Source of the DNA: Terebella lapidaria
Taxonomy: Eukaryota; Annelida; Polychaeta; Terebellida; Terebellidae
DNA: 64,000 nt
Assembly (NCBI GenBank): GCA_949152475.1
Contig: OX424566.1
Location: 28,930,423 to 28,994,422 of the forward strand
Direction: 5' to 3'
The position numbers and the translations under genes are program-made. This document shows, in pieces, positions 22,201-64,000 of the stretch. The notes beneath the pieces are model-generated. The model saw only the letters and a program-made list of their open reading frames with translations, had not been told where the DNA came from and ran no database searches. Positions within the stretch are counted from its first letter, which is position 1. The number at the start of each line of letters is the position of its first letter.

Positions 22201-25097
22201 CTAGACGAAAAACAGAACATGCTCACCATGAGCATGTGGACCAAATACGTAAGGCAATCATGATACATGGATAACAATAGGAATTAATCTGAGTGTGCTA
22301 CTCTGGATAATTGACGTGTTTTAACTGATGTTAAAAAATAAATATGTAGACCTACTAGATACTGAACTATTTTAAGAGTGAATTATGTGTTTTAGCATAG
22401 CGATCAGTTCAGCTGATACAGTGATATATGATGAATAATGGTGGACATTGTCGGTCAATATTGTAAGTGCTATATCATTGAACACCTTTCTCTGTTATTT
22501 GATTACCGAGTAGGAGTGGGTAGATGAGTATCTGACATGGGACCCTCAGGATTACGATGGAGTTGCCCAGCTTACTGTAGACCCCTCAGATATATGGATT
22601 CCTGATATCATGCTCATCAACACGTGAGTTACATAATGACGAGTCACGTCGTTTAAAGTAAAGAGCTTGAACAGAGGAGAGAAATTGTTGTTAGTAGCAG
22701 ACAAATTTCATACTTGTTTTTGGTGTAAGTATTATTCCCAGAATTTTGAAATTCAAGAAGGGGGGAAATTATACATTGTCACATATATACAGCCCACTTG
22801 AAACCTGATTTAACACAATCTTTTATGCGACCATTCACTGCAATATGATATGTGTCCGTGCACAGACGATAAGATTAATTAGACGTGGTCCGTTTCCTAT
22901 TTCAGCGCGGATATAGACGTGCCGTCTCGCAGTACCATGGCCGTTGTCAATAGCAACGGCGTCGTCAACTGGTTCCCGCACTGCATCTACCACAGCGCAT
23001 GCTCAGTAGACGTTAGCAACTTCCCGTTCGATCAGCAGAAATGCAACATGGCCTTCGGGTCGTGGACTCATCCAACCAAGGAGCTGGACATTGAAATGTC
23101 CTTCGCTGGTGGCCTAGACCTTTCAACGTTTGAGAGTGAAAACCGCGAGTCAAGTGCGTGGGAAATTTTGAACGTTACGGCGAAACGACAAATTCTCCCC
23201 TCGGAAACAGAATACCCCAATTATGCCATATTGACGTTCGAAATGTACATGGCCAGGAAATTAGTGTTCTCCACCTACATATTGACTCTACCGTGTGTCT
23301 TCCTGGCTTTTCTCACGCTTGTTGTGTTCTGGTTGCCACCAGAACGACCAGACAGAACGGCACTCGGTAGGGATGTCTTCGTTTTTATTTACCGAATTTG
23401 TCTTCTAATGCTCGATTGAACCAGCTATACATATCCACCCATTAATGGTCTTGATGGCATTATTAATATCATGTTCACATGAGGTCAATACAGAATATTG
23501 GTACATGTACAAATGCTCCTCCATTCATAGTTCGGTTGCAATCAACTTCGTTTTCCATCAAATTGGTGGGAAAAAAACTCTATTCCATCGGAGGAAAACA
23601 ATATCATTTCTTGATTATGCCGGTCTTGTTTCAAGTTTAGCTTACTCGTGGATCCATACTCCCACGGAGACTGCCCGGTGAAGCTGATATTACTTGTCTC
23701 TCGTTTTGCAGCTATGAGCACTTTCAGCAGTTTCATGTTTTTACTACTGATCTTGGTGGAATCCTCTCCACCGACGACGAACACAATACCTCTCCTGGGT
23801 GAGTATTCCTGATGGAATGGCACAAATCATATCATCTTTGAACATGGGGTGACACAGCTAGGAGTCATGTTTTTGATATCATCAACACCGCGTCTTGTCT
23901 ATTAACAATTTTTTAATATTACTCGATATTTGCTCGATATAATCCCAAGGTTAGTGCTAATTGTAGTCGCAAAAAAATCCATTGCAATAATGTATGCTTT
24001 TGTGCTGAGAGCATGTCAGTAATATAGTAGTGACGGGTTTTGTCATTTTATCCCCAGGTGTCTATTACTGTATCAACATGGTTATCATCGTCATGACGGT
24101 TGTACTATCCACGCTAGTGATCAACCTTAGCAGAGGCCCAAAGGACAGAAAGTCTAGACCACCCAAGTGGCTCAGAACGGTATGTTTCAAGGCAGTCTAA
24201 GACATAATCACTGACGAAAAAATTAATGTTTTTTTCTATTCAACATCCATTCATTACTCGATAGTGATGATTATGCAGAGGATTGTGTGTTCTGGGACGT
24301 ATTGAAATTCGAGGATAATATATATTGTGATGTTACATACTTGTACAAGAAATACTGTAAGAAATGCTAGAATTGTCGTTGAACTGTGATAAAATCAACA
24401 TTTTCAAGAACCGTTGCCTGTTACTCCTAACTGGTAGTTGCTAAATTTCAAGTAATAGAATTATGTTGATAAAACTGTTACACATCTGTCAACTGTTACC
24501 GATAGTAAACTATCACATACACTGACATTCCACAGCCAGTAAAGAAATGTTGATCACTTTGCGACGGTCTTAAGTATCACTAAAACTATGTTATTTTTCC
24601 CTCCATCACAGGTGGCTCTGAAGGGTCTAGCTCGTATCTTCTGTATGCCTTCCATCTATCGAGAGGTTTCCCGGCGTGCTCTCTCGAGGACCACTAGTAA
24701 AGAGGACGGCGAGGAGAGGAATCACATGATAGGGTGGAATAGCAAAAACCCCACCAACAATGGCTGTGATTACCGGAATAGCAATGCCAATACAAGACTC
24801 GAATTTCCCTTGATCGAGCAGGAAAATAACTACAATGTGACAGACTCGCAGCTCTCGAGCAACGCTCTCTTTCTTGCACTTAAGACTGAAATGGAGAAAA
24901 CGAGGAAATCTATGGAGCGCCTGGAGGGGGCGCTCGTGAATAAAAACGGCTGCAAGTCGGAAGATATTATGTGGGAGTGGCGCGCGGTTTCCATAGTGAT
25001 TGACCGCTTCTTCTTTGCCCTTTATGTCATTCTCATAGGATTGTCGCTCATGTTTTTCTTCCCTCGACCGGAGGCGAGAATGGAGTTTTCAGCGTGA
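1143..25097 (+). CDS. Cys-loop ligand-gated ion channel subunit (nicotinic acetylcholine receptor-like), seven exons
   Basis: This gene encodes a plasma-membrane pentameric channel subunit of 521 aa. Exons are 1143-1249, 22056-22248, 22514-22623, 22906-23366, 23712-23798, 24058-24179 and 24612-25097; every junction is GT..AG and all phases agree. Residues 1-22 look like a signal peptide. The extracellular domain (about 30-255) has the 13-residue Cys loop C169-C183, with FPFD inside it, and the loop B segment FGSWTH (W190). TM1 is about 256-280, TM2 288-310, TM3 321-346 and TM4 493-510, with a 140-residue cytoplasmic loop between TM3 and TM4. The vicinal loop C cysteines and the loop A tyrosine of ACh-binding alpha subunits are absent (LINTAD replaces the usual LYNSAD). 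The TM2 9' position is Ser296 rather than Leu. It is therefore a non-alpha or divergent lophotrochozoan subunit, and its ligand is unknown. The family call is firm; exon 1 is inferred from phase, signal peptide and donor. Confidence 0.9.
2310..3212. mobile_element. Non-autonomous hAT-type DNA transposon in intron 1
   Basis: The element starts CAGTGTACTCTG and ends with its reverse complement CAGAGTACACTG. The terminal inverted repeats extend about 23-24 bases to AAACCGG with a few mismatches. The flanking octamers TACATGTA (2302-2309) and TACATTCA (3213-3220) match at 6 of 8 positions, as expected for an ageing 8-bp hAT target duplication. Both subterminal zones carry repeats of CCGGTATGGACA and CCGGTTTATC types. 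No transposase is visible in its 903 bp, so it would have depended on an enzyme supplied from elsewhere. Confidence 0.75.
3540..5830 (+). repeat. Intron 1 repeat, unit U1 (most diverged copy)
   Basis: This stretch shares ordered landmarks with units U2-U4. The segment at 3760-3980 resembles 10800-11040, 12060-12300 and 16145-16390. A degenerate copy of the box at 12960-13030 lies at 4605-4665. The segment near 5175-5330 resembles 8160-8350, 13615-13810 and 17690-17860. Similarity was found by eye and borders are approximate. No coding frame is conserved. Confidence 0.55.
5831..6499. other. Intron 1 sequence between units U1 and U2
   Basis: I see no gene or clear repeat here, only AT-rich DNA. 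Some of it may be unrecognised repeat-unit sequence. Confidence 0.4.
6500..9500 (+). repeat. Intron 1 repeat, unit U2
   Basis: Landmarks shared with other units include the TCATCAAAATATGAGA region (about 6630-6730), the AGCTAATTACTCC box (7335-7390), the block at 8160-8390, the CGTACTCAGGTTCGG block at 8800-8890, and the block at 9360-9480 whose partners are 14875-14990 and, more weakly, 2045-2170. Two short tandem copies of the AGCTAAT box occur within 7335-7390. Confidence 0.6.
9501..10229. other. Intron 1 sequence between unit U2 and a partial copy
   Basis: No supported gene or clear repeat is visible. Short open frames on both strands look like chance. Confidence 0.4.
10230..11060 (+). 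repeat. Intron 1 partial repeat unit
   Basis: This stretch parallels 15500-16390 (unit U4) and 11590-12300 (unit U3) in order: TTTCAAGGACTT, ATGAGA, the GAAACT region, the GTCAATGGACTC region and the AACAATGCATG region. It then stops, and the next unit begins about 11590, so it is a partial or deleted copy. The open frame at 10435-10725 starts with a hydrophobic stretch, but the other copies do not keep it open. Confidence 0.55.
11590..15000 (+). repeat. Intron 1 repeat, unit U3
   Basis: Unit U3 pairs with U4 at a near-constant offset of about 4.05 kb: 11590 with 15650, 12930 with 16980, 13620 with 17690, and 14330 with 18380. Matches are in the same order and orientation, showing an ancient tandem duplication of a segment of about 4 kb. 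Confidence 0.65.
15480..18580 (+). repeat. Intron 1 repeat, unit U4
   Basis: This is the last recognised copy of the intron 1 repeat. It is clearest at 15500-15960 (compare 10230-10700) and 16960-17100 (compare 12905-13055, where GTAGAAAAGCATTGTTATCT is shared exactly). Past about 18.5 kb the similarity fades. Confidence 0.65.
18581..22055. other. Last part of intron 1
   Basis: This is intronic DNA without a supported gene. It holds the repeated and inverted GTAAGTCACAAGTTGAT motif at 19016-19145 and, near 20755-20790, a short stretch matching 15235-15265 (ATAGATTGATACTTACAAT). Nothing else stands out before the polypyrimidine tract and acceptor at 22055. Confidence 0.5.
19016..19145. repeat. 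Short direct and inverted repeat of a GTAAGTCACAAGTTGAT motif
   Basis: GTAAGTCACAAGTTGATATC (19016) recurs as GTAAGTCACAAGTTGATGTC (19124). Between them, CGACTTACGACTTGTGAC is largely the inverse of the motif. The block could form a hairpin and may be a relic of a small inverted-repeat element. Confidence 0.45.
22056..22248 (+). CDS. Receptor exon 2 (N-terminal helix and first beta strands)
   Basis: The acceptor TTTTCCAG precedes 22056 and the donor GTAAGG begins at 22249. The exon encodes residues 36-100: the ligand-binding-domain N-terminal helix (EKRLILKLMGHYEW), a glycosylation sequon NST, and the conserved GLGLKQMDLDEKQNMLTMSM stretch (compare the IMDVDEKNQ region of nicotinic subunits). 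Confidence 0.88.
22514..22623 (+). CDS. Receptor exon 3 (loop D to loop A)
   Basis: The exon begins after TAG at 22513 and ends before GTGAGT at 22624. It encodes EWVDEYLTWDPQDYDG and the WIPDIMLIN loop A segment. The PD of loop A is kept, but the aromatic residue used by ACh-binding subunits is replaced by Ile. The small size and borders are typical of nicotinic-like genes. Confidence 0.88.
22906..23366 (+). CDS. Receptor exon 4 (Cys loop, loops B and C, TM1)
   Basis: The acceptor TTTCAG ends at 22905 and the donor GTAGGG begins at 23367. The exon encodes residues 137-291, including the disulfide pair C169/C183, the extra cysteine C163, the sequon NVT at 226-228, the loop C region without adjacent cysteines, and TM1 ending in the family motif FWLPPERPDRT. 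The open frame running past the donor to 23419 is intronic read-through and is not used. Confidence 0.92.
23367..23711 (+). other. Intron 4 of the receptor gene
   Basis: This 345-bp intron separates TM1 and TM2 exons. I see nothing beyond splice signals. Introns 2 (22249-22513), 3 (22624-22905) and 5 (23799-24057) are each under 300 bp and equally unremarkable. Confidence 0.8.
23712..23798 (+). CDS. Receptor exon 5 (pore-lining TM2)
   Basis: Acceptor TTTTGCAG ends at 23711; donor GTGAGT begins at 23799. The exon encodes the pore helix MSTFSSFMFLLLILVE followed by the TM2-TM3 loop SSPPTTNTIPLLG. By alignment on the conserved 0' basic residue (R287), 9' is Ser and 20' is Glu. The hydrophobic Leu gate of classical nicotinic subunits is missing. 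Confidence 0.9.
24058..24179 (+). CDS. Receptor exon 6 (TM3 and start of cytoplasmic loop)
   Basis: Acceptor TTATCCCCAG ends at 24057; donor GTATGT begins at 24180. The exon encodes TM3 (VYYCINMVIIVMTVVLSTLV) and the basic start of the cytoplasmic loop, ending PPKWLRT. The PPxWLR sequence is a family hallmark after TM3. Confidence 0.9.
24180..24611 (+). other. Intron 6 of the receptor gene
   Basis: This 432-bp intron holds no recognisable feature apart from its donor GTATGT and acceptor CACAG. Confidence 0.8.
24612..25097 (+). CDS. Receptor exon 7 (cytoplasmic loop, TM4, stop)
   Basis: The acceptor CATCACAG ends at 24611. The exon encodes 161 residues: the variable cytoplasmic loop, the amphipathic MA helix before TM4 (WEWRAVSIVIDR), TM4 (FFFALYVILIGLSLMFFF), a short tail ending MEFSA, and the TGA stop at 25095-25097. 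The WxxVAxVIDR-like motif before TM4 is characteristic of nicotinic-like subunits. Confidence 0.9.
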   Translation: MALKGLARIFCMPSIYREVSRRALSRTTSKEDGEERNHMIGWNSKNPTNNGCDYRNSNANTRLEFPLIEQENNYNVTDSQLSSNALFLALKTEMEKTRKSMERLEGALVNKNGCKSEDIMWEWRAVSIVIDRFFFALYVILIGLSLMFFFPRPEARMEFSA

Positions 25098-34474: not shown

Positions 34475-35369
34475 TGTGATAGGATCACCCAACCGCACAT
34501 TTTAAATGACACCTCCCCATTTAGCGTGACGCTTCATGTCGGTGTTTCCCCCTAGCAACTTCGCGCCGTTGCACAAACAAACGACGCAGTTCGCCATTTG
34601 GGAGTGACCGGACAACATCGTTGCTTAAGTTTAGATCCAAAATCTGACTTTCTCCGGTCCTCCCATCTTACAGCAACACGGAAATCAGCTGCCGGTAAGT
34701 GGAATCAACATCATCGTCTGATTATCTGTGTATTTTGTTCATATTCCCACTTCGAAGTTAGGATTCTTGTCTTTGTTGTCGAAGCCAGTTTCCCGCCATT
34801 TGCCGATTATCGCTCGGCCTTTGTTTACATTAAGTTCTCGATAACTGATCCATAGGTAATTCCCATTTAAACATCTGAACCTAAAACAACATTCAAACAT
34901 CAATAGCGATTACAATTCAGGTAAACAGATTTAAACCAGAACCGTCATGGTTGCGTTATGATCATCCATTGTTTCAATCGTCATCAATCATCTGCACTGT
35001 GTGTATAATTGTGATTCTTTTATCCAGGTTGTGGGCTTGACACCTTTTATCGACCATCGGCCGTTTACCCCCTCGGCATATTTTAACATCACCAGGGGTA
35101 AGATCTCGTTTGGGTTCATTCATATGTATTTATTCTTTCATCCCTTTGAGTCATATTTCGTACTTATTAGTTATCATTCATATTTTGTTATGCATTAGTT
35201 ATATGCATGTAGTTTGGTCATTTGGTTTGTCATTTCACCATTTGTATATATTCATATCAAGTCATTGTATATATTTATTAATATCGTTACAGGGTAAATT
35301 TGATAGACAATAAACCCGTCAAACTCCCGATGTGTCTTGATGCGCTAATTCCAACACAACCCTGAAACA
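34475..35369 (+). repeat. 5' LTR of the gypsy element
   Basis: The LTR is 895 bp and has the usual TG..CA ends. Its counterpart lies 8,012 bases downstream. An AATAAA at 35309-35314 near its end is a plausible poly(A) signal. Open frames inside it are the same in both LTRs and are not genes. Confidence 0.95.
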
Positions 35370-35370
35370 G

Positions 35371-35388
35371 TGGAGCCTCCAGTGACAT
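35371..35388 (+). other. Putative primer binding site
   Basis: TGGAGCCTCC begins one base after the 5' LTR. Starting with TGG at this place fits a tRNA-primed minus-strand start. I could not assign the tRNA. Confidence 0.45.
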
Positions 35389-36763
35389 CACCTGTTGAGT
35401 CCGTACTTCACAGTGCCGCCGTGACCACATCCGGCCTGGCCGCGTGAAAGCCACTTCAGGTAGTCGCCCACGCCGACAGCTGAGATCCGACAGCTTGAGT
35501 CCACAGCTCAAGCACATACTTGGAACTTCGAGTTCGCCGTTCGGTTGTGTACAGCATCTGCAGTAACCACTGCATACACACAGCCTACTCACCGCCAGAT
35601 GACAGAGTCGTGCTAGATCGACTCCTTCGCTCGCTCGTCTGCGCTTCGCCAGGACGTACATCGTCATTCGTCGGGTCGGCTCGGCGCTTTCATCGACCTG
35701 CATGTTCGACACCGGTTGACTATCGACCTTGTTTATCACCCGGGTGACGTGACTGTGTGTTGCTAATATTTTGTGTTGCACACACTGGTGTATTATAGTT
35801 CTGTGATTTTTACATGTTACTTTATTCGATTATATCCATGGACTTGGTGGAAATGTTGATTTTCACATACCAGTTGAATTTATTCCATGGACATTGAACA
35901 ATATTTATTGAAATATTGAACATTTATTCTTGTGTCACATATTTGTGTGTGATATAGTTTTTTGTATATTCAATTTGGTATACAGTGTATTGGTTTATTG
36001 GTTTCATTTATTATCATCATATAATACAAGTGTTTATTCAATATTGTCAAACTGACCTTGACTGTAGGTCATACCAAGTTGTCAAATTGACCTTGAATGT
36101 AGGTCTCATACATATCTGTCATTTGTCATCTGTCATCGGGTATCCGTATAGAATCATTGGTCATATAAAGTTGTTTTCCAGCTGCACTATATCTGTGTTG
36201 ACTAATATCTAACACATAACAACCTTGCACTTACCAGCATTCACATTGCCACTTCAACTGATCATACCTGTTCATAAACTTGTCATTTATAACGGGCAGT
36301 GTGCCAACCTTTAAAATTAGTTCAATTTAGGCAGGTTCAGACTTAAACAATATATGATTAGTATTTGTTAAATAGGTATTTTATATTGTGCCTTAGGGCA
36401 ATTTAAACTTGTTATTTTCTTTAAATCTTAAATAATTTAACTGTGGTTAATATATAAATTTATAAAACTTAATTAAATATAGGCCCAACTTATAAAATTT
36501 TACTTCACCTACCCTATAGTTTACTCTAGGTACAGTGTTTTGGTCTTAGGATATTGTGGTTTGAACTTTGGTATTTCAGTTCTGGTACTTGTTGGTATTT
36601 GATTGCTGGATTATTTTTTTGTTGAACTTTGACCAATTGGAATTCATACTTGATCTGGATTCATATATTTGAATTCATTTACCCAATTTGAGCTTGTCTC
36701 CTACATTGATTGTAGACCAACTTTGATATATTTTCATTGTTGTGTATCCAATCTATTTGCTAC
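35389..36763 (+). other. Untranslated leader of the gypsy element
   Basis: About 1.4 kb lies between the primer site and gag. The first 350 bases are GC-richer and the rest very T-rich. A minus-strand open frame covering 35287-35781 does not look like a protein. Confidence 0.55.
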
Positions 36764-38206
36764 ATGGAGGTTACCAAGCGGGTAATTCATGTTTCTGGCT
36801 TGTCAGAAGTGTCCGAACAGGACTTGCGCCAGTTTTTCTCCAGATTTGGGGACGTTGAGAATGTGGAACATGTGGATGACCACACGGTTTATGTTCTGTT
36901 CGCCAGTGAGTCGACTGTGGAGTCTGCACTTCAGTACAGCGGGAAGAGCTACAGGGATGACACGGTCATCATCTCCAGGCCTGACGCTGATCAGATTCAA
37001 GCTTTCTTGAAGATTTTTGGCGTTACTTCTTTGCCAGCATCAGACGATCCTCTCGAGTCTGTCCGCCGCAATTTGCGTGACTGCTTGAAGGGTGTCGATC
37101 CTGGAACTCTTTTGTCTCTTTTGCAGTCCATAGCCTTGGAAGTGAAGGAGCGGGCCATGTCTGACCCTACAACTGGTGATGGCATGAATGACTTAGTTGA
37201 TCAACCAATTAAGTCTGAGCCTGTGACTTCTGCTTCCATTCCGTCTTCTGCTTTCCAGCCTTCATCTTTTCAGTTCTCGACTTCGGCACCTGTCTTCAGT
37301 GGACCCCCACCGACACCGTATGTCAACCTTCCGACACCAACTGCTTCCATCACTAGCTACGTTCCAGTACCGTCTCTCCAGTATCCGAAGATTGTTTTCT
37401 TCTCTGGTGACGGGAAAGACGCCAGCTATCACCAGTGGCGGAATGAGGTGAAGTGTCTGTTGAACGAAGGACAACCACCATCCAACATCCTTCAGGGAAT
37501 ACGTCGTTCACTCAAGGGAACTGCCGCTGAAGTTTTGTTGAATCTGGGGGAAGACGTGACACCGAACAAGATCCTGCAGAAGTTTGACGTCATTTTCGGC
37601 GATGCCCTTAGCTCAGATGCTTTGATTGAGGAGTTTTATGCTGCTAGACAGAAGGAAGGGGAACTAGTTGCAGTCTGGGGATGTCGGCTTGAATCAATGT
37701 TGGCCAAGGTCCAGCGCCGTGGCCGAATGATTCCCGATGCCCCAGAGCGACTGCGGTCCAAATTCTGGAGTGGACTCAGGGACAGCCGAGTGAAGAGCGG
37801 AATCCGTCACAAGTTCGACAGCAACATGGACTTCGAGAGCCTTCTGCGTGCTGCACGAGCCGTGGAAGCCGAGAAGCCGTGTGAAGGTGACAGTGACTCG
37901 CAGCCGAAGGCAGCTGATCAGGTCAAGCTTCATGCTCAACAGGCTTCTTCGTCTCTCGAAGCCAAGCTGGACACATTCCTGCATGAGATGAATGACATCA
38001 AGGCTCAGCTGAAGGACATCAAGCGACAGAGGAACACTGGAACGTCAGCCCCGAGGCCAGCCCAGGAATCGCAGACAAAGCAGCAACTCTGGTCTTCTGG
38101 ATCGTGTTTCTATTGTCGTGAGCCTGGTCATTTCATCGCAGATTGTGCCCGCTTGAAGAACAAGAACCAGCGGAGCAACTCTTCATTTTCGGGAAACGGC
38201 CAGTAA
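36764..38206 (+). CDS. Gag of the gypsy element, with an N-terminal RRM-like domain
   Basis: This open frame of 480 residues from its first ATG encodes the structural protein. Residues about 4-75 look like an RRM fold (RVIHVSGL, then DLRQFFSRFGDVENV), as in the vertebrate PNMA family. A Ser/Thr/Pro-rich linker follows, then a capsid-like region (about 210-380) and a zinc knuckle near the C-terminus (CFYCREPGHFIADC). The frame overlaps pol at 38143-38206 in the -1 register, the arrangement this family is known to use for frameshift expression. Confidence 0.85.
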   Translation: MEVTKRVIHVSGLSEVSEQDLRQFFSRFGDVENVEHVDDHTVYVLFASESTVESALQYSGKSYRDDTVIISRPDADQIQAFLKIFGVTSLPASDDPLESVRRNLRDCLKGVDPGTLLSLLQSIALEVKERAMSDPTTGDGMNDLVDQPIKSEPVTSASIPSSAFQPSSFQFSTSAPVFSGPPPTPYVNLPTPTASITSYVPVPSLQYPKIVFFSGDGKDASYHQWRNEVKCLLNEGQPPSNILQGIRRSLKGTAAEVLLNLGEDVTPNKILQKFDVIFGDALSSDALIEEFYAARQKEGELVAVWGCRLESMLAKVQRRGRMIPDAPERLRSKFWSGLRDSRVKSGIRHKFDSNMDFESLLRAARAVEAEKPCEGDSDSQPKAADQVKLHAQQASSSLEAKLDTFLHEMNDIKAQLKDIKRQRNTGTSAPRPAQESQTKQQLWSSGSCFYCREPGHFIADCARLKNKNQRSNSSFSGNGQ

Positions 38207-41200
38207 CCAGTGTCGCAGGGCAGATGTCTGGTTACTGTAGCCCAACCAGCCCTAAGAAGACTCATACATTGGTTGGTGGACGTAACATCACGACCATCGG
38301 GATCTTCGATACCGAGTGCCAAGCACTCATCGACACCGGATCTCAAGTCACCACCATCTCTAGTCACTTTCTGGATCGGGAACTACCTGGCATCCATATT
38401 CGACCAGTGGAGGACCTCATCACCCTACGTGGCGCCGGTGGAAACATTGTGCCGTACGATGGGTATGTTGAAGTGGACATCACTCCGAACCCAGACACCA
38501 CGTCCAAGGTCTACACAGTGCTTGCACTTGTTGTATCTGGAGAACAGTACAGTCCGGATGTACCCATTGTATTGGGGACAAACCTGATTGAGCTGTTCGC
38601 CGCTGATCTTAGGGGTTCATCCACTCCAGTGTCGTCGTCATGGACTCTTGCCTTCAAGAGTATCCATTTCATCGATCGCGACGACGGGGTCCTTGGACAA
38701 GTCAAGTCAACTCAAGAGGAAGTCATCAGACCAGGCGAGAGGAAGGTCATGAGCGGAATGACTCGTGCTTGTTGTGGAGTCAACTTGCCGAACATTCTGG
38801 CTTATACAGAACCAGTAATGGAACAGGCCCTTCCTGGTGGACTCTTGTTGACCCCAAGTGTCATCAGTCTCCAGCCAAACACTGCATCAACCTACAGGGT
38901 CAAGGTGGAAGTACGCAACATATCGCGGAAAACCCTTACGATCCATTCCAAGTCGACAATCTGTGCCCTTCATCATGTAAAGGAGGAACCACCATCAGCT
39001 AACACCAGTCATCCAGTCATCTCCAAGGAACTCACTGACCAGATTCATTGGCCTAGTGATATGGATCAGCACCATCAGTTGGAGCAATTGGTCTCCAAGT
39101 GGAAACATATCTTCGCCACATCCGACCTCGATTGGAGATACACCGACATGGTGAAACACCAGATCAACTTGGACAACGAGACCCCGATCAAGGTGCGAGC
39201 AAGACGAGTACCACCCTCGATGTACCAAGAAGTTAGACAGCACATCAAGGACATGTTGGAAGCCGGACACATCCGTCCATCAAACAGTCCTTGGTCTTTT
39301 CCAGTAGTGCTTGTTCGGAAGAAGGACGGTACGTTACGCTTCTGCGTTGACTATCGTGAACTGAACCGACGCACTATCCGTGATGCCTACTCGCTGCCAA
39401 GAATCGAGGAGACTTTGGATGCGCTTCATGGATCGACCATGTTCTCGTGTTTGGATTTGAAAGCCGGATATTGGCAAGTTGAGGTTGCGGAAGAACACAA
39501 GGAGCGGACAGCATTCAGTGTTGGCCCGCTGGGATTTTATGAATTTAATTCCATGCCGTTTGGTCTCACTAACTGTCCCGCCACCTTCCAGCGTCTAATG
39601 GAAACCACCATGGGGGACATGCATCTCAACCAGTGCCTCATTTATCTCGATGACATCATCGTGTATTCATCCAACACGGAGGATCACATCGCTCGTCTGG
39701 AAGCCGTCTTCAAACGTCTTAGTGATGCAGGCTTGAAACTCAAACCGTCCAAGTGCGAGTTTTTCAAGTCTGAGGTCAAGTACCTTGGTCACCGGATTTC
39801 TGCTGAAGGGGTATCAACTGATCCAGAAAAGATCGCTGTTGTCCGAGACTGGCCTCAGCCTGAGACTGTCAAGGATCTTCAGAGATTTCTGGGTTTTGCT
39901 GGGTTCTACCGCCGGTTCGTACCTAGTTTCAGTAAGATCGCTTCGCCTTTATTCACATTAATGGAACGACATCTGGACCGAAAGTCAAGGAAGAAACAGT
40001 TGGAACATCTAGACTGGAGTGACAAGCATCAGGAAGCTTTTGCTCTCATCAAGTCCAAGCTCACTTCCAGTCCTACCTTGGCCTTCGCCGACTACACTCA
40101 GCCGTTTGAGTTGCACACTGATGCCAGTTCACATGGATTAGGTGCAGTGTTGTACCAAACCCAGGGAGATCGTCAGAGAGTCATCGCTTATGCCAGCCGT
40201 GGCTTGAAGCCTGCTGAAAAGCACTATCCGGCTCATAAGCTTGAGTTCTTGGCTCTCAAGTGGTCCATCACCGACAAGTTCCACGACTATCTGTACGGGA
40301 GCAAGTTTCAAGTCTGGACGGACAACAATCCTCTGACCTACGCCCTCACAACCGCGAGGTTGGATGCAACAGGACATCGTTGGTTAGCTCGTCTAGCCAT
40401 GTACAACTTCTCCATCCATTACAAGACTGGAAAGACCAATGTGGATGCCGATGCCCTGTCTCGTCTTCCGGAAGTCTCCGAGGATGTCGTCCAAGCCGTC
40501 TGTAGTGTGGAGGAAGTACGGACAAACTACATATCTAGTCTCCCTGTGTCGGCTGATGTTGTTGACCATATATTTGTGTCCGATGTCGTCGACCCTCTGG
40601 ATGTTCAGCAGATTCAACTGAACGACACCGATGTGGGCTGTGTTCTACAATGGAAGCTGGATGGGAAGCGACCTTCTGATGAGACCTTGGCCACCAAGTC
40701 CAAAGAAGTCAAGCTGTTGAGTCGACAGTGGGATTCTCTCCTCGTCATCGATGGGATCCTTTATCGCCAATCCGGAAGTGGACTCCCAAGGTCGAAACAG
40801 ATTGTCATTCCGTCCAGTTATCGGGACCATGTGATGACCAGCCTACACGAGGAACTTGGACATCCTGGAAGGGACAAGACCATCACCTTAATCAAGCAGC
40901 GCTTTTACTGGCCTGGACTAACATCTGATGTTGAGAACAAAGTCTCCAGATGTCGGCGTTGTCTCTGCCGGAAGTCCCATGGTCAGAAAGCCCCACTAGT
41001 ACCGATTTTGACAACTCAACCAATGGAATTGGTCTGCATCGACTACCTTCTCGTGGAACCGTCACATGGCTTCGAACATCTTCTCGTCATCATCGACCAT
41101 TTCACCAAATTCGCTCGGGTAGTGCCAACACGGAATGAGTCGGCGAAAACCACCGCGAAGGCACTCCTGGAGAATTTCATCAACCTCTATGGTTATCCTC

Positions 41201-42249
41201 GCTCCATCCATTCCGATCAGGGTCGGAATTTCGAGTCATCGATCATCAAGGAGTTGTGTACTTTAACTGGGATTGCAAAATCCAGAACCACTCCTTATCA
41301 TCCCATGTGTAACGGAGCCTGCGAGAAGATGAACCAGACTTTATTGAAGATGCTCGGGACTCTGCAGAATGAGAAGAAGACAAGGTGGAAGGATTATTTG
41401 AGTACGTTGGTCCATGCTTACAACTGTATTCCGCATGAGACCACAGGATTCGCTCCATACGAACTCATGTTTGGCAGAGTTCCATCACTTCCGATCGACC
41501 AGGAGTTTCAGCTCAGGGGAGAGGGTACAGTCGGTGACTGTACACAGTACATTCGGGACTTGCGGGAGCGGATCTCCTACTCCCACAAGATGGCTGCGGA
41601 GAAGATGGCTCAGAAAGCCTCCACTCTGAAACCAAGGTGTCGTCCTGCAGCAGTCCTGAATGTCGACGATGAGGTTCTTGTACGGAAGCTTGTGCTGACC
41701 GGCAGGAACAAGCTGGCCGATAGATGGGAGGATGATGTATATGTCATCTTGGAACAGCCCAACCGGGACATCCCTGTCTATCGTCTAAAACCCAAGCATG
41801 GCAAAGGTCGAGTCAGGACACTCCATAGGAATCTCCTTTTGCCACTTGGTACCGTCAGCTCTGAACATGAGTCTGACCGCCAGTCACTCATTGTTGAGGG
41901 GAAGACGTCGAGACCTCCATCTCGTCCACCACCATCACCACCGAGATCAGTACCTCCAGCTCGACGACCACCATCGCCACCGAGGTCGACTCCCCCTACA
42001 AGGACTCCTCCTCCACCACCTCCAAGTTCCGGGAGTGAGGACCAACTATGTGTTGAGTCCAGTGATTCCGACGATCAGACTGTGAAGACGTCATCTTCCT
42101 CTGACGGCAATGCTTCCGTTCGACGGTCCAAGCGCCGGAGGAAGCCACCTGACCGTCTTCAGCCTGCTATGTTCCAGCAGGAAGCGTCGGTTTCATTCAA
42201 CGACAAGTCTCGGTTCATTCTCCAACTGGTGGATCGAATGTTTCCTTGA
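38143..42249 (+). CDS. Pol of the gypsy element (protease, RT, RNase H, integrase)
   Basis: Domains in order are an aspartic protease (LIDTGSQ), a reverse transcriptase with the YLDD box, RNase H (HTDASSHGLG), an HHCC zinc-binding region and an integrase core (IDHFTKFARV, SDQGRNFES). A proline- and serine-rich tail of about 100 residues follows. The gene overlaps gag by 64 bases. The open frame is 1,368 codons and looks whole. I saw no chromodomain at the end. Confidence 0.92.
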   Translation: MCPLEEQEPAEQLFIFGKRPVTSVAGQMSGYCSPTSPKKTHTLVGGRNITTIGIFDTECQALIDTGSQVTTISSHFLDRELPGIHIRPVEDLITLRGAGGNIVPYDGYVEVDITPNPDTTSKVYTVLALVVSGEQYSPDVPIVLGTNLIELFAADLRGSSTPVSSSWTLAFKSIHFIDRDDGVLGQVKSTQEEVIRPGERKVMSGMTRACCGVNLPNILAYTEPVMEQALPGGLLLTPSVISLQPNTASTYRVKVEVRNISRKTLTIHSKSTICALHHVKEEPPSANTSHPVISKELTDQIHWPSDMDQHHQLEQLVSKWKHIFATSDLDWRYTDMVKHQINLDNETPIKVRARRVPPSMYQEVRQHIKDMLEAGHIRPSNSPWSFPVVLVRKKDGTLRFCVDYRELNRRTIRDAYSLPRIEETLDALHGSTMFSCLDLKAGYWQVEVAEEHKERTAFSVGPLGFYEFNSMPFGLTNCPATFQRLMETTMGDMHLNQCLIYLDDIIVYSSNTEDHIARLEAVFKRLSDAGLKLKPSKCEFFKSEVKYLGHRISAEGVSTDPEKIAVVRDWPQPETVKDLQRFLGFAGFYRRFVPSFSKIASPLFTLMERHLDRKSRKKQLEHLDWSDKHQEAFALIKSKLTSSPTLAFADYTQPFELHTDASSHGLGAVLYQTQGDRQRVIAYASRGLKPAEKHYPAHKLEFLALKWSITDKFHDYLYGSKFQVWTDNNPLTYALTTARLDATGHRWLARLAMYNFSIHYKTGKTNVDADALSRLPEVSEDVVQAVCSVEEVRTNYISSLPVSADVVDHIFVSDVVDPLDVQQIQLNDTDVGCVLQWKLDGKRPSDETLATKSKEVKLLSRQWDSLLVIDGILYRQSGSGLPRSKQIVIPSSYRDHVMTSLHEELGHPGRDKTITLIKQRFYWPGLTSDVENKVSRCRRCLCRKSHGQKAPLVPILTTQPMELVCIDYLLVEPSHGFEHLLVIIDHFTKFARVVPTRNESAKTTAKALLENFINLYGYPRSIHSDQGRNFESSIIKELCTLTGIAKSRTTPYHPMCNGACEKMNQTLLKMLGTLQNEKKTRWKDYLSTLVHAYNCIPHETTGFAPYELMFGRVPSLPIDQEFQLRGEGTVGDCTQYIRDLRERISYSHKMAAEKMAQKASTLKPRCRPAAVLNVDDEVLVRKLVLTGRNKLADRWEDDVYVILEQPNRDIPVYRLKPKHGKGRVRTLHRNLLLPLGTVSSEHESDRQSLIVEGKTSRPPSRPPPSPPRSVPPARRPPSPPRSTPPTRTPPPPPPSSGSEDQLCVESSDSDDQTVKTSSSSDGNASVRRSKRRRKPPDRLQPAMFQQEASVSFNDKSRFILQLVDRMFP

Positions 42250-42476
42250 GGCGTCGCTCTTGAATATGAAATTGAATTGGACCACCGATTTGGAAACCGT
42301 CTAGAATCTTCGACTACGGATAACGGACATTGATTTGTCAGCCTGGATTTATTTGTTTATTTATTTTGTGATCCTTGCATGAGGCTTACACTTCTTTCCA
42401 TTTTCATTCCAGATTCATTTCTTTCCATCTCCATTTCAGTTTGTCATCCTAAATGTCGGGACGACATTTTTCATTC

Positions 42477-42484
42477 GGGGGAAG
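42477..42484 (+). other. Polypurine tract before the 3' LTR
   Basis: GGGGGAAG lies two bases before the 3' LTR, the expected position of the plus-strand primer. Confidence 0.6.
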
Positions 42485-42486
42485 CA

Positions 42487-43381
42487 TGTGATAGGATCAC
42501 CCAACCGCACATTTTAAATGACACCTCCCCATTTAGCGTGACGCTTCATGTCGGTGTTTCCCCCTAGCAACTTCGCGCCGTTGCACAAACAAACGACGCA
42601 GTTCGCCATTTGGGAGTGACCGGACAACATCGTTGCTTAAGTTTAGATCCAAAATCTGACTTTCTCCGGTCCTCCCATCTTACAGCAACACGGAAATCAG
42701 CTGCCGGTAAGTGGAATCAACATCATCGTCTGATTATCTGTGTATTTTGTTCATATTCCCACTTCGAAGTTAGGATTCTTGTCTTTGTTGTCGAAGCCAG
42801 TTTCCCGCCATTTGCCGATTATCGCTCGGCCTTTGTTTACATTAAGTTCTCGATAACTGATCCATAGGTAATTCCCATTTAAACATCTGAACCTAAAACA
42901 ACATTCAAACATCAATAGCGATTACAATTCAGGTAAACAGATTTAAACCAGAACCGTCATGGTTGCGTTATGATCATCCATTGTTTCAATCGTCATCAAT
43001 CATCTGCACTGTGTGTATAATTGTGATTCTTTTATCCAGGTTGTGGGCTTGACACCTTTTATCGACCATCGGCCGTTTACCCCCTCGGCATATTTTAACA
43101 TCACCAGGGGTAAGATCTCGTTTGGGTTCATTCATATGTATTTATTCTTTCATCCCTTTGAGTCATATTTCGTACTTATTAGTTATCATTCATATTTTGT
43201 TATGCATTAGTTATATGCATGTAGTTTGGTCATTTGGTTTGTCATTTCACCATTTGTATATATTCATATCAAGTCATTGTATATATTTATTAATATCGTT
43301 ACAGGGTAAATTTGATAGACAATAAACCCGTCAAACTCCCGATGTGTCTTGATGCGCTAATTCCAACACAACCCTGAAACA
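42487..43381 (+). repeat. 3' LTR of the gypsy element
   Basis: This is an 895-bp copy of the 5' LTR with the same ends, at a constant offset of 8,012 bases. I saw no difference in the stretches compared. It is followed directly by the CAAG target duplication. Confidence 0.95.
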
Positions 43382-54150: not shown

Positions 54151-55051
54151 CATGGAATAGGTTCTTGATTCTTGTATAATTTACCGTAAATGTTCTATAC
54201 ATGCCGGAATTCCGATATTTTCTCAGTAATAATTTACGTTCGGAATTTCGTGAAAATGCCATTTATGATTTTCCCGACTGCACATTGTGTACAACCCAAA
54301 ATATGTGGTATATTATATCACATATTTTATTCAGATAGATCTATGATACTCATGTCATCAGAACAGCTGTATGTGTAAGAATATTTATCAGTCCACTGAC
54401 CATGGCATCACAAAAAACACGTTCATCATACAATAGAAAATTTACTTCTTGGTCTTCAAATGAACCTTATGGTTGAATCCGTTTTATTTTTTGGAATTAG
54501 GCTGAATGATCACGAAAAATGAAACACTGCACAAGGTGGTAGTGATGTGTTTGTTCATTCAAAATATTGCTATTTGAAACTTTCCATTAGTTTTACCCAT
54601 ATAGACCCACAGCATGGCCGATTATTTGTGTATGAATACAACAATTGCAATGATAATATACCTTCTACCTGCCAAGCATGCGGTAAACACATTTGTACAG
54701 GCTCCTCAGGATTCCATGATTATGTGTTACTAAATGCAATAAGGAGACATAAAAACTCGCCTGGAATGGGATATTGTCATAAAGATCATCGTAATGCATT
54801 CTAAAATACTATTTGTGTTGGATATATCATGCAAAACTAGGATTTATATCAGTGTTGAATCTACACCAGTGTGAAATATCGGAGCCATTTTGCATGCATG
54901 AGTGCTCATGAACCAGCATATGTATCGGACCATTCTAACTCTGTTGTTTCCTGCACACGCCGTCACGCACCTGTGACTGACCTGAATTACGTCGACATTG
55001 AAGAACAACAATAACAACACGAACTCAACAGCCGTACCCACCACACCAGTC

Positions 55052-56320
55052 ATGTCAACAAAAACCAGATCCGCCCAAAGTAAGTCAAACGTTGATGAAA
55101 TGCCTGACTGGGCTGTGAGACTAAAAGATGATATTATTGAAAGTCTGGGAAGCAAACTTGATTCTATGATAGAAAAAGCAGTGCATGATGTCAAAGAGGA
55201 ATTCCACAAGGAAATCGAAAAAAGCATCAGTTTCGCCACTCAGTCATTAGCAACAGAAGTCCAGGATCTGAATGTGAAAATATCCCGTCTTGAAAATGAC
55301 TCTCAGCAACAAGATAAAACAATGAAGGCCCTTAGGCAGATGTGTAGGGAAAACAAAGAAAGAACGATACGACTAGAAGCTTATGGTATGAGAGAAGCCC
55401 TTGTTTTCTCTGGATTTGAGGAGAAAGAGAATGAAACGGAGGATGACATCAGAACTGCCTTGTACGAGTTATTCGAGAATGACCTGGATATAGAAGATGC
55501 TAGTAGCATGCGGATCTCCAGGTGTCACAGGCTTCGATCTACTCGAGACGGTCAACCTAGAGATATAGTTGCCAGATTCCTGTATTATCCAGATAGACAA
55601 AAGGTAATGAGTGCTGCCAAAAAACTTGAAGGTAGAGAAGATCCCATCTTTATCAATCCACACGTCCCCAGGGAAATACAGCAACGACGTAATCTGCTCA
55701 GGCCAATCGTCAAACTGGCCAAATCCAAACACATCAAAGCCTTCCTAGTACAAGACACTCTACATGTCAAAGACAAGGTATACACAGTTGAAAATCTGGA
55801 CGAGTTGCCATTCCGATGGGAGTCCGTGTCAACGAAAATGACAAATGATCATGTATTCTTCTTCGGCGGCCTATCTCCGTTCAGTAATTTCAACGTCATC
55901 AACAGCTCCTTTGTCGTAAATGGAGTGACATTTTCTTGTTCAGAGCAAATGTTTCAATACCGCAAGGCCACTCATGTCGGTGAAGACGTAGCTGCTACAA
56001 ATGTGCTTCTCGAAACGGATCCTGTTGCCATGAAACGGATAGGCGATGCTCTCCCGAAGAAACCCTCTTGGAATGACTTGGCTCCAGTGGTGATGAAAGA
56101 AGCGTTGATCGCGAAGTTCAGTCAGAATCCTTCCTTGAAAAAGCTGATCAAGGAGACTGGGCAACGTCAATTCGTCGAGTGTAACCGAAGTGATAAACTG
56201 TGGGGGATAGGACTGCCTCTACACCATGACGCCATCAGTGACGAGAGCAAGTGGAAAGGCAAGAACCTCCTCGGCAAAACATTAGGTGAAGTGCGCACTA
56301 TCATAAACAGTGACTCCTAA
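55052..56320 (+). CDS. LINE-ORF1-like RNA-binding protein fused to a NADAR domain
   Basis: This intact single-exon ORF gives 422 aa from the first ATG; the frame is closed upstream by TGA at 54983. Residues about 20-108 are charged and heptad-like (coiled coil). Residues 113-255 resemble the RRM and C-terminal domain of L1-type ORF1 proteins (ALVFSGF; RISRCHRLR; PRDIVARFLYY; PREIQQRRNLL). Residues 267-417 are a complete NADAR domain: FFGGLSPFSNF (270-280), CSEQMFQYRKA, VMKEAL, KF, TG, VE, WGIG (384-387) and GKNLLGKTLGEVR. NADAR proteins (YbiA-like) are N-glycosidases on ADP-ribose derivatives, including ADP-ribosylated guanine in DarT-NADAR systems. It lies 1 kb before a LINE RT fragment. It may be a retroelement ORF1 that gained NADAR, or a host gene derived from one. 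Domain calls are strong; the role is inference. Confidence 0.82.
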   Translation: MSTKTRSAQSKSNVDEMPDWAVRLKDDIIESLGSKLDSMIEKAVHDVKEEFHKEIEKSISFATQSLATEVQDLNVKISRLENDSQQQDKTMKALRQMCRENKERTIRLEAYGMREALVFSGFEEKENETEDDIRTALYELFENDLDIEDASSMRISRCHRLRSTRDGQPRDIVARFLYYPDRQKVMSAAKKLEGREDPIFINPHVPREIQQRRNLLRPIVKLAKSKHIKAFLVQDTLHVKDKVYTVENLDELPFRWESVSTKMTNDHVFFFGGLSPFSNFNVINSSFVVNGVTFSCSEQMFQYRKATHVGEDVAATNVLLETDPVAMKRIGDALPKKPSWNDLAPVVMKEALIAKFSQNPSLKKLIKETGQRQFVECNRSDKLWGIGLPLHHDAISDESKWKGKNLLGKTLGEVRTIINSDS

Positions 56321-56575
56321 TCACTATCCTTGACACTGAGCGTACAGAACATGAACTTGAGCATCACATATTCACTCTTGGTAGATAGATAACGAACATC
56401 CACTTGTACAATATGAGTTCTAGGATAAGTTTATGTAATGTTTCATTTCCTACACCCAGTATTTTTTTATGTGTTATGTGTTTCCTTTTCTGAACATACC
56501 CTATATATTATGACTGTGTATGCAATGATGTATGTGTGTATATAATATATATATATATATGTATATATATATATG

Positions 56576-56657
<82 letters not shown>

Positions 56658-57283
56658 GACTTAATATTCGAAGACTGAGCTAATGAAGTTAACTGATTGT
56701 ATGATACTACATGTATGCATACTGCATGCAGTGGTATACAAGGTTAATATATCATGTTCGAATCTGAGTGTATCTGATTAAAGGTATATATTTTTCGAGA
56801 TCATACCTGATTGCTCCTCATTTATATTGTTGCAATCAATGATTTTTTGGCATGTGATCATGAAAAATTTCAGGTTCGCCCGTTTGTAATGATCTTCTTG
56901 ATGAAAATGATTATATTGACGTACATGTAAATTTATTAACTACAATATGGAATTAGTGTATCGTATCTCAACTGTTATGTATATGTATGTGACCTGGTAA
57001 TAACACTGAATATAACTCTAACATGCACCTGTCTCGTGTTTGTTTGTGTTGTTGTGGTTTCTTGTGGCCGCCGTTTTCACACATTTAACATACTCACGAA
57101 CAAGTACATCCGTGAGTACAAACAAATCAATGAAGATCGGATATTGATCCTGTATACTGAAAGGAGTAACTCAAGCAGGAGTAGTTCTGCGCTCTAATCC
57201 ATCATAACCACGGTGTGAAAATGCTGTGAGTTGACTATAACCATCTTCTTTATGGCTCACTGAGTAATGCCTGGGATATATAC
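56321..57283. other. Spacer between the NADAR ORF and the LINE RT fragment
   Basis: About 960 bases hold no protein similarity I recognise. It contains the AT microsatellite and otherwise resembles 3' untranslated DNA. No endonuclease or central RT motifs are present, so the usual ORF2 is mostly missing. Confidence 0.5.
56530..56655. repeat. (AT)n microsatellite
   Basis: A run of TA/AT dinucleotides of about 125 bases, interrupted by a few GT steps near its start. Confidence 0.95.
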
Positions 57284-58060
57284 AATAAAACAAAATACAT
57301 CGTATTGCACCCTTCTGGAAGACGCGTAGATATGTCACGTTATGATATTGCTATAGCGGGTGTTAAATTGAATAGAATAGGGGATCATAATGACGAAAAA
57401 TGTACCAAGTTTTTGGGGTTATATTTCGATGAACATTTAACCTGGAAATATCATATTAATCACATGAATTAAAAAATATCACATGCTTTATTCGCTATTA
57501 AACAAGTCAGTAATTTCTTGCCTACTAATACTTTGAAAACATTATATTATACTTTAATCCATCCACATATTACCTATGGGATAATTGCATGGGGTAACGC
57601 TCAACCATCCGTTTTACGAAGGACAACACTTCTCCAGAAACGTGCAATCAGAATAATAAACAAAGCCTCTTATAATAGCCATACGGAACCATTGTTCAAA
57701 TCTACAAATATTTTGACGGTTGGGGATATATTTCTGTACCAATGTGCTTTATTTATGTTTGACTTTGTTAATGGGGGACTACCACGATCGTTTGATGGTA
57801 TATTTCAATATAATATTGAAATCCAACAATACCATGTCACTCGACAAGCCGAGCTGCTTCATGTACCTAGGATTTTTAACAAATTTTCACGTAGTATGCC
57901 ATTCTTTCAACTTCCGATAATATGGAACAAACTTTTGCGTGAGATAAATACTAATATATCACGCCCCGTATTTAAATTTCAATTTCGAAAACATCTAAAT
58001 GACAAATACTCGAATATCGTACGGTGTAGCAACCCAAATTGTCGTGATTGTCGAACATAA
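57284..58060 (+). pseudogene. C-terminal fragment of a CR1/L2-like LINE reverse transcriptase
   Basis: The frame reads NKTKYIVLHP, then KFLGLYFDEHLTWKYHI, ISHALFAIKQVSNFLP and LKTLYYTLIHPHITYGIIAW, the standard region after the catalytic core of non-LTR reverse transcriptases. It ends in a CxxxxCxxC-like tail (CSNPNCRDC). One in-frame TAA at 57470-57472 interrupts it. The endonuclease and the catalytic FADD/YADD part are missing, so the copy is dead. The 3' UTR runs to 58469 and ends in AAATAAACTCTACTCTAC. Confidence 0.8.
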
Positions 58061-58469
58061 AAAAAAAAATATATATACAAATAGTAAACTGGATGGTACC
58101 AAGAACCATTGGTTCGCCGTTTGCATTCATATGCAATCTGTGTTATTGAATCGGTCTGTCAAATGATGCTATTTCTGTTTTCTTTTGCTAAGATTTTTTA
58201 TGCATTTAATATAGTCTCCAGGTTGCATCGAGCACCATGCTGTTATGTTTTTTTCTGTTATAGTTTCCTTTATAAACAATATTTCACTCATAGGGCTTGT
58301 TGTAAGACAGCCAGTAGGCTATACATGCCCTCCTCTAATCATATATTATACGTTATGTGCATCATATGAAACTATTTCTTTGAATATTCGTTGTCAGTTC
58401 CATATGTACTATATGTATTTATCTATCATTATAATGTATTTGATTTGAGGGAAATAAACTCTACTCTAC
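58061..58469 (+). other. 3' UTR of the LINE fragment
   Basis: This sequence follows the RT stop and ends at the TATAC target duplication. It is AT-rich and has no ORF of interest. Confidence 0.65.
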
Positions 58470-62575: not shown

Positions 62576-64000
62576 CTAGTGGGAGTCTGTTATAGACCAC
62601 CTATGAACTCTAACTTCTACAGTTCACTTGAAGCATGTTGTGGTAACTGTTCTAATTTTAATGAAAGTGAATGTATATTGCTTGGTGACTTCAACTCGGA
62701 TTATAATGCCATAAACTCACATAGTAACCAGTATTGTTCTCAACTAAAACAATTTATGTATATGTTTGATCTTAAACAACTGATCACATCTCCTACTAGG
62801 GTAACTGACCTAACTTCTACCATCTTAGATCTGATTCTGGTTTCCTTTCCCCAGAACATTAGTCAATCTGGTGTCATTACTACGGGTTTCAGTGATCATA
62901 TGATGATATACTGTACTCGTAAGGTTCAGCGTCCCACTAGTAATAAACACAATACGGTTAGACTTCGGTCACTCAAAAGGTATACCAAAGAACTATTGCA
63001 TGGTCAGTTACAATCTGTAAATTGGTCTAATGTTTTAGAGTGTAACAATGTAGATGAGGCATGGTGTAATTTCAAAGAAATTTTTCTTGGTATCATAAAC
63101 AAAATTGCACCCTTAAAACAAGCCCGTGTTAAAATGAACACGGACCCCTGGATGACAGGCGAAGTACTCCACCTTATTCATGAGAGGAATAGTGCTCTCA
63201 AAAACTATAGAAATACTGGACTAACAAGTTGGTATGACAAGTATGTCAATCTCAGAAACCAAGTACAGAACAAACAGGCTGCTGCTAAATCAGAATACTT
63301 TGCGAATAAGGTGGAGGAAAATAAAAACAATCCCTACAAACTTTGGCAAACCCTGAAAGACCTTGGCACATCCAAATCCAAAAACACTCCCTCAAATTTA
63401 GGACTTAAAATAAATGATGAAATCTGTTTCGACAAAGCCAAGGTTGCTGAAAAATGCAATAACTTCTTTTCAACCGTTGCCTCATCTCTGCAGTCTAAAC
63501 TCATCCCTGGTACTGGAAAATTTGGTATGACCCATGTGTATTATGAATCACTAAAGAGTAAGGATACAAGATTCAGTTTTGATGTACTTACATCCAAAAG
63601 ACTATCCTCAACCTGAATTCGAACAAGGCTACCGGTTTGGATCAGATTCCCGCTCGTTTTACTAAAGATGGTGCCGAGTTCATAACTTCTCCACTCACAC
63701 ATATTCTAAATGTGTCCCTTACCACTGGTATAATTCCACCTGACTTTAAGTCTGCTAAAATTTCACCAATATACAAGAAACAAAGTAAAACTGAAGTAGG
63801 TAACTACCGTCCGGTCTCAATCCTGAGCATAGTGAGCAAACTTTTTGAAAAAGCTGTTTATGAGCAACTAAATCGATACCTCACAGACCAGAAGCTCTTA
63901 TATGAGCACCAGTCAGGTTCCCGTCCCTCGCACTCCACAGATACCTGTCTAGCTCATTTGACTGATTTTATCAAAACCGAGCAAGACAAAGGTAATTTTA
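62576..64000 (+). pseudogene. 5'-truncated LINE ORF2 (endonuclease and reverse transcriptase), CR1/L2-like
   Basis: The frame begins inside the endonuclease domain (LVGVCYRPPMNSNF), continues through LLGDFNSDYN and GFSDHMMIY (the catalytic Asn/Asp and Ser-Asp-His motifs), and then the linker before RT. At about 63600 the reading frame shifts by one base: the first frame ends in TGA at 63614-63616, while the RT continues from 63604 in another frame (ILNLNSNKATGLDQIP; NYRPVSILSIVSKLFEK; HQSGSRPSHST). The window ends before the catalytic YADD. It is a dead, 5'-truncated copy. It could belong to the same LINE family as the fragment at 57284-58060, but the two do not overlap enough to tell. Confidence 0.85.

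Follow-up and report, generated by a model that had tools for sequence, protein, structure and literature searches.

NADAR domains of the YbiA family have been reported inside retrotransposon proteins, namely in the Pol of a Gypsy element of Ectocarpus and, apparently, in the first open reading frame (ORF1) products of several oyster Tx1 long interspersed nuclear elements (LINEs), with RNA processing put forward as an idea (PMC12477816, from 2025). In the parts of that paper covered here, the oyster case is given in one sentence, with no anatomy, selection or active-site test. Here we describe a LINE family of the annelid Terebella lapidaria whose ORF1 joins an RNA-binding protein of the L1 type to a complete NADAR domain. 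The copy under study lies in a stretch of 64,000 nucleotides (the window; assembly GCA_949152475.1, contig OX424566.1, positions 28,930,423 to 28,994,422, forward strand). The initial annotation of this window, which was made from the letters alone, knew of no described system of this kind. That statement was too strong, and the family described here is a variant of what was known already, NADAR in retrotransposons with oyster LINE ORF1s included. In the open-licence PMC literature, as far as its texts were covered, no source besides PMC12477816 bears on NADAR in LINEs (Repbase lay outside the search), and the covered parts of PMC5408684 and PMC7922944 hold nothing on the subject.

Other known systems resemble this arrangement in part. 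The type II ORF1 proteins (ORF1p) of L1, CR1 and L2 elements have the same order of coiled coil, RNA recognition motif (RRM) and C-terminal domain (CTD), and they are modular proteins that are exchanged between ORF2 lineages (PMC4120745); the family here differs by the added C-terminal NADAR, and the words 'NADAR' and 'DUF' have zero occurrences in the main text of that paper. LINE proteins with a captured enzyme include an esterase ORF1 (PMC3905857) and TRAS with a viral helicase (PMC5563155), but these are other enzymes with other presumed roles. Animal RNA viruses are likewise selfish RNA-based replicators with a NADAR, which is proposed to undo host ADP-ribosylation (PMC9503650), but there the domain lies inside viral polyproteins and not in a retrotransposon RNA chaperone. 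The NADARs of the DarT1-NADAR toxin-antitoxin systems (PMC11543638, PMC11125620) belong to the same domain superfamily and have the E/K catalytic residues in common with the LINE domain, but carry Asp where LINE NADAR has Glu376.

The ORF1-NADAR fusion and the LINE copy of the window

The frame of ORF1 runs on the + strand from an ATG at 55052 to a stop ending at 56320 with no interruptions (422 codons; 444 from stop to stop), as the initial annotation had described it. It is not a chance frame, as approximately 6e-9 frames of such length are expected in the window from base composition, and its translation contains all four motifs quoted earlier. Pfam PF08719 matches residues 274-418 with an E-value of 4.5e-34 (118.5 bits against a cut-off of 35.1), and NCBIfam TIGR02464 matches with E=7.8e-33 (113.9 bits against 73.7). 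The L1 ORF1-like part is weak when searched from the single sequence (PDB 2ykp, E=0.0075, residues 66-229). A 32-sequence profile of the fused proteins (A2) matches L1 ORF1p 2ykp at E=2.7e-15 and 2ldy at 5.1e-11, and also NADAR 8bau at 3.8e-30 and YbiA at 5.7e-23. The proposed fusion of an ORF1-type protein to a complete, conserved NADAR domain was borne out by these matches. The HMMER check suggested at the time was answered in one half only, with Pfam NADAR found and Transposase_22 absent among the window-protein matches at E<=1. The coiled coil is indicated by the L1 ORF1p alignment and by weak coiled-coil Pfam matches, and the N-terminal part is predicted to be a type II ORF1p with a coiled coil, a single RRM and a CTD.

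ORF1 is almost certainly the first ORF of a LINE (non-long-terminal-repeat retrotransposon) family recently mobile in the same genome. Full copies consist, from 5′ to 3′, of a short 5′ untranslated region (UTR), ORF1 (the L1-type RNA-binding protein and NADAR), a long spacer, and ORF2 (endonuclease and reverse transcriptase, RT). A near-identical copy on contig C14, formed by locus L002 and the adjoining L031, has ORF1, a 1.6-kb spacer and an open ORF2 of 1,037 amino acids with Exo_endo_phos and RVT_1 domains (RVT_1 match at 578-797), while its ORF1 frame stops 12 residues early. The window copy is 98.5% identical to it over 2,637 bp (54662-57278) and 99.6% identical over 1,182 bp (57283-58464), and the 2.96 kb between these parts are absent in the window. 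The window copy is a young insertion, which explains its open ORF1 frame, and its internal deletion extends into ORF2. The features of this copy are as follows.

54662-55051 (+): 5′ end and 5′ UTR of the LINE copy; homology to L002 starts at 54662, and the flanks differ
55052-56320 (+): ORF1, the intact ORF1p-NADAR fusion of 422 codons, from the frame and the Pfam, NCBIfam and profile matches
55052-55375 (+): N-terminal coiled-coil region, approximately residues 1-108, on an indirect basis and with limits set by eye
55376-55834 (+): L1 ORF1p-like RRM and CTD, approximately residues 109-261, limits set by eye; profile match to 2ykp and 2ldy
55871-56305 (+): NADAR domain, residues 274-418 (PF08719, TIGR02464, PDB 8bau and 2b3w)
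55943-55966 (+): active-site E298 and K305 (E43 and K50 of P. nicotianae NADAR), by alignment to 8bau
56177-56203 (+): active-site E376, D381 and W384 (E125, D130 and W133 of P. nicotianae NADAR), by alignment to 8bau
56321-57278 (+): first part of the spacer between the ORFs, with an AT microsatellite near 56541-56655
57278-57283 (+): junction of the internal deletion; approximately 2.96 kb of L002+L031 are missing, comprising the remaining spacer and residues 1-779 of ORF2
57284-58060 (+): C-terminal remainder of the element's own ORF2, residues 780-1037, 98.45% identical to L031 ORF2
58061-58464 (+): 3′ UTR; the common sequence ends in AATAAACTCTAC, a second TCTAC unit is present in the window, and there is no poly-A

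A "dead RT" had been placed at 57473-58060. It is a remnant of the reverse-transcriptase ORF2 of the same element, but not of the RT core, as 57284-58057 corresponds to ORF2 residues 780-1037 and lies nearly all C-terminal to RVT_1 (578-797). The intact frame beside it had been taken as a sign of either selection or recent arrival. The near-identical copies speak for recent arrival; in terms of selection, the ORF1 frames of the window and L002 differ by 1 synonymous and 6 non-synonymous changes, which give no sign of constraint and are too few to prove its absence. In a search for target-site duplications, the longest word common to both flanks has 6 bp in the window copy and 8 bp in L002; neither abuts the element ends.

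Copies across the genome

The search of the species' own genome (761.6 Mb, 438 contigs) gave 99 scored matches of 1,205 candidates, and these are 33-100% identical to the window protein. When a match is counted as covering both the RNA-binding and the NADAR parts if it starts at residue <=130 and ends at >=391, both parts are covered in 84 of the 99, and 71 of those 84 are stop-free (83 of 99 overall). A chance fusion or an assembly error is ruled out by the presence of the fusion, whole or in part, in these 84 matches and in 14 metagenomic relatives.

Within lineages, the copies start at nearly the same base and have unlike flanks, and some are 98-100% identical while located on different chromosome-scale contigs. 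L017 and L018, on contigs C8 and C9, are identical over 2,943 bp, and the window copy is 99.9% identical to L004 over 880 bp and 98.5% identical to L002 over 2.6 kb. The near-fixed starts, unlike flanks and near-identical copies establish recent retrotransposition. Copies truncated at the 5′ end are present as well, with ORF2 matches of 98-99% identity beginning at residues 37, 467 and 489. Because L004 is another shortened copy, in which ORF1 breaks off near codon 176 and RT comes next, and ORF2 of L010 is recognisable only from about residue 207, internal deletions recur in the family.

Association with ORF2

Thirty loci were fetched of the 99 matches, and the author's grouping gave 14 lineages with stop-free copies; L011/L023, which carry stops, are additional and were not followed downstream. 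In 12 of the 14 lineages, an ORF2 follows ORF1 on the same strand (W/L002, where W is the window copy, L005, L007, L008, L009, L010, L013, L014, L017, L020, L024 and L029). The matches of L007 and L020 are weaker, with about 100 residues approximately 3.7 kb away at the end of the fetched stretch, and no ORF2 was found within approximately 4 kb downstream in L026 and L030. Many copies with ORF2 downstream had been set beforehand as the mark of a mobile system, and this is the pattern that was observed. Exo_endo_phos and RVT_1 score above the Pfam cut-offs in L031, L033 and L034. The spacing between the ORF1 and ORF2 matches is unusually long (approximately 0.9-3.7 kb in L002+L031, L005, L007, L029 and others), and overlapping self-matches in L011/L023 and L046 look like tandem repeats. 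At L027:3-1049, next to a NADAR LINE copy, is an open frame whose match to GIY-YIG is weak and falls below the cut-off (6.4e-4).

The search with ORF2 gave 44 scored matches of 12,931 candidates in the same genome. A listed ORF1-NADAR is located 0.9-2.2 kb upstream in 9 of the 44, with 0.014 expected by chance; two more have one at 13 and 16 kb and were not counted. For 10 of the other 35 ORF2 matches, the 3.5 kb upstream contained NADAR in no case, a type II ORF1 without NADAR in one (L052) and no recognisable ORF1 in nine. NADAR is therefore borne by a subset of these LINEs. Two of the nine stretches without ORF1 look 5′-truncated, L045 (its ORF2 match, 99% identical, begins at residue 37) and L048, which has 917 bp of spacer in common with the NADAR element L012 (99.8%) but not the ORF1 of L012.

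The RT motif of the NADAR-element ORF2 is GVPQGSILGPLL with FADD, compared to GTRQGCPLSPLLF in L1. This motif would be of the type of the CR1/L2/Jockey superfamily, and Tx1 presumably has the L1 motif. By that motif alone, ORF2 would not be Tx1-like. The family also differs from the oyster Tx1 case in that two ORF2 lineages have the ORF1-NADAR module in common. In the ORF2 tree there are two groups, A with 5 lineages and B with 7 (support 100/100); the columns of the ORF2 alignment are covered to only 11-12% by L007 and L020, to 44% by L014 and to 32% by L029. The ORF1 tree rejects group A as a single clade (approximately unbiased (AU) test, p=0.0072). L005 and L008 pair in the ORF1 tree (83/93, not a starred branch) with 67% DNA identity over 956 bp, whereas L005 belongs to ORF2 group A and L008 to group B, and their pairing in ORF2 is rejected (p=4e-5). 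These trees indicate that the ORF1-NADAR module probably moved between two deep ORF2 lineages, and PMC4120745 likewise describes ORF1 evolution as reticulate. P0021, a metagenomic protein, and L052:926-1708 are ORF1s of this type that lack NADAR, so the domain appears to be gained or lost modularly.

Selection and the NADAR active site

Pairwise GY94 codon fits were made for five lineage pairs, with NADAR and RRM+CTD treated separately (10 fits). The ratio of non-synonymous to synonymous rates (omega) was 0.046-0.122 for NADAR, with 2dlnL (twice the log-likelihood difference) versus omega=1 of 52-115, and 0.005-0.054 for RRM+CTD, and omega=1 was rejected in 10/10 fits (2dlnL 52-159). The synonymous divergence (dS) was saturated, and one fit reached the limit set for t, so that the omega values are approximate, although omega=1 is strongly rejected. 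The fits indicate that NADAR is under strong purifying selection between lineages. Some close pairs other than the window and L002 gave omega above 1, on a handful of changes.

The numbering of P. nicotianae NADAR (PMC11543638) was placed via a constant offset on 8bau in the HMMER alignment, and from this offset we infer that 8bau is the P. nicotianae NADAR. W340 of the window ORF1 corresponds to its W89. E298, K305, W340, E376, D381 and W384 are all kept in 24/24 stop-free copies; many of these are near-copies, with 14 lineages behind them. All six residues are also present in four of five further copies (L011, L018, L021 and L023), which gives 28/29 in total, while the decayed L003 is without E298, W340 and E376 and has Asn at the position of the last-strand Glu. 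With the YbiA-type NADAR signature, the last-strand Glu and the catalytic E and K in place, the domain is a predicted enzyme. A DarT-type NADAR (BC4488 or DarT-associated) is ruled out by the last-strand residue, which is Glu and not Asp in 24/24 stop-free copies and 4/5 others.

Relatives in metagenomes and viruses

Among approximately 5.8 billion predicted proteins there were 17 matches at E<=1e-5. Fourteen of these (P0001-P0014) have the ORF1-NADAR arrangement, some N-terminally incomplete, at 30-41% identity, and the other three share NADAR only. A second search with A2 gave 24 at E<=1e-10, with the best 7,999 candidates scored, and adds the shortened fusion P0018 and the NADAR-less P0021. 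P0004, P0005, P0007 and P0009 form a metagenomic branch with Leu at the essential Lys, in which Glu376, Asp381 and Trp384 are kept; their NADARs are perhaps binders. The viral contigs contained no relative when searched with the window protein and, with P0001, only L035 (IMGVR_UViG_3300031998_000008), a stand-alone NADAR on a 208-kb viral contig that is 38% identical to the P0001 NADAR. The genome contigs searched with A3 gave no match.

The NADAR tree was built from 28 LINE and 12 stand-alone NADARs (P0015-P0017 were dropped, as only fragments aligned). When the tree is left free, the LINE NADARs do not fall in one clade: P0010 is paired with the stand-alone P0024, and P0011, P0012 and P0014 are placed weakly near stand-alone ones. 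The data do not reject a single LINE-NADAR clade (AU p=0.539; constraining the tree to it raises the log-likelihood by 0.86), and by these trees several independent captures of NADAR by LINEs would not be needed.

Proposed function

L1 ORF1p coats the element RNA in cis. An ORF1p of this kind would hold the C-terminal NADAR on the RNA and later on the cDNA, where the domain would strip from guanine bases the ADP-ribose that host ADP-ribosyltransferases attach, and so allow translation and reverse transcription to proceed. The element would carry its own countermeasure against ADP-ribosylation of nucleic acids, much as has been proposed for the NADARs of animal RNA viruses. We put a rough probability of 0.5 on this mechanism and the identity of the element jointly, namely a LINE ORF1p-tethered guanine de-ADP-ribosylase that protects the element's RNA or cDNA. 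NADARs are described as reversing guanine ADP-ribosylation in DNA (PMC11543638) and in RNA, though not phosphate-end RNA modification (PMC11833690). Since clam and butterfly proteins modify guanine N2 (PMC11209040), animals can make the guanine ADP-ribose mark. Also in favour are the six active-site residues kept in 28/29 in-genome copies, the purifying selection on NADAR and the presence of PARP-family (PF00644) matches in the own genome. The 32 matches (of 53 candidates) comprise single exons and probable contaminants as well; those on contigs C433, C318 and C423 of G000 have a number of TAA/TAG codons in frame, suggestive of a ciliate-type code, and are possibly contaminants of the assembly.

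Several observations weigh against this function. The host transferases sought were those of PF00644, enzymes which mainly modify proteins. The ADP-ribose phosphate contact R79 of P. nicotianae is D in 14/14 lineages (D332 in the window protein), and R93 is A in 13 and S in 1 of 14; with these contacts replaced, the substrate may differ. The 14 metagenomic relatives vary at the active site: the position of the essential K is taken by L in four (P0004, P0005, P0007 and P0009), by G in P0010 and by R in P0006, that of E376 by V in P0012, and that of W384 by F or Y in P0011, P0012 and P0013. Related LINEs also do without NADAR, as in the ten ORF2 upstream stretches without a listed ORF1 (0/10).

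One alternative, which we consider improbable, is that NADAR serves to read or erase ADP-ribose where the element integrates: PARPs are active there, at nicked target DNA, and the domain would guide the ribonucleoprotein to the ADP-ribose or clear it. According to a review (PMC8535693), PARP1 and PARP2 are at work where L1 integrates, and retrotransposition falls by about half when either is lost. PARP-family matches occur in the own genome. A binder would also fit the 6 of 14 metagenomic relatives in which most of the domain persists despite replacement of the catalytic K (by L in 4 and G in 1) or of E376 (by V in 1). However, the catalytic set is kept in 28/29 in-genome copies, seemingly beyond the needs of binding alone.

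It is similarly doubtful that the domain processes other NAD-derived or RNA-processing products, such as soluble ADP-ribose derivatives or RNA intermediates, the latter an idea of the Ectocarpus authors. A YbiA-type N-glycosidase activity on riboflavin intermediates has been described, and SNA-3, a NADAR protein of nematodes, has a role in RNA trans-splicing and loses function when its NADAR residues are mutated (PMC9303266). The differing R79 and R93 contacts of the LINE NADARs fit such a substrate, but the fusion to an RNA-binding ORF1p would argue for one bound to nucleic acid, and no metabolite link turned up, none having been searched for. Domestication by the host of a retroelement-derived RNA-binding de-ADP-ribosylase at the window locus, which the initial annotation had allowed for, is very improbable: ORF1 is intact beside a deleted ORF2, but the protein is multicopy and not single-copy, near-identical copies exist elsewhere (L004 and L002), the element's own 5′ and 3′ ends are still in place, and the window copy is without a signal of constraint. 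Guarding against guanine modification would thus be our first choice of role, followed by PARP-marked integration sites or other NAD-derived products.

Other features of the window

A Ty3/Gypsy element at 34475-42786 has direct repeats that are identical over 300 nt and 8,012 bp apart (34475-34774 and 42487-42786), and both its Gag frame and its Pol frame are open. The N-terminus of the Gag is RRM-like (RRM_1 1.1e-7, NCBP3 9.4e-8), and the protein also contains a CCHC knuckle and a match to PNMA. At 62576-63966 lies part of another LINE, with the endonuclease and the start of RT, which is 25-41% identical to the NADAR-element ORF2. A likely exon of a host Cys-loop neurotransmitter-gated ion channel gene lies at 22883-23419 (Neur_chan_LBD 9.4e-23). 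An Rfam scan of the window gave 0 matches.

Implications

In bacteria, toxin-antitoxin systems are known to use reversible guanine ADP-ribosylation; its role inside animal cells is not settled in the literature covered. A mobile element that keeps the NADAR active site under purifying selection, on a protein expected to wrap its RNA, offers a concrete substrate to test, and ORF1p, which PMC4120745 describes as the less understood of the LINE proteins, gains an enzymatic module. We advance only tentatively the broader possibility that a widespread group of animal LINEs carries a guanine de-ADP-ribosylating enzyme in its RNA-coating protein and that this enzyme acts on the element's own RNA and cDNA as a retrotransposon counter-defence. 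If this is true, it would imply that guanine ADP-ribosylation of nucleic acid is a host weapon against transposable elements, and selection for the counter-defence module would account for the exchange of ORF1 between unlike ORF2 lineages.
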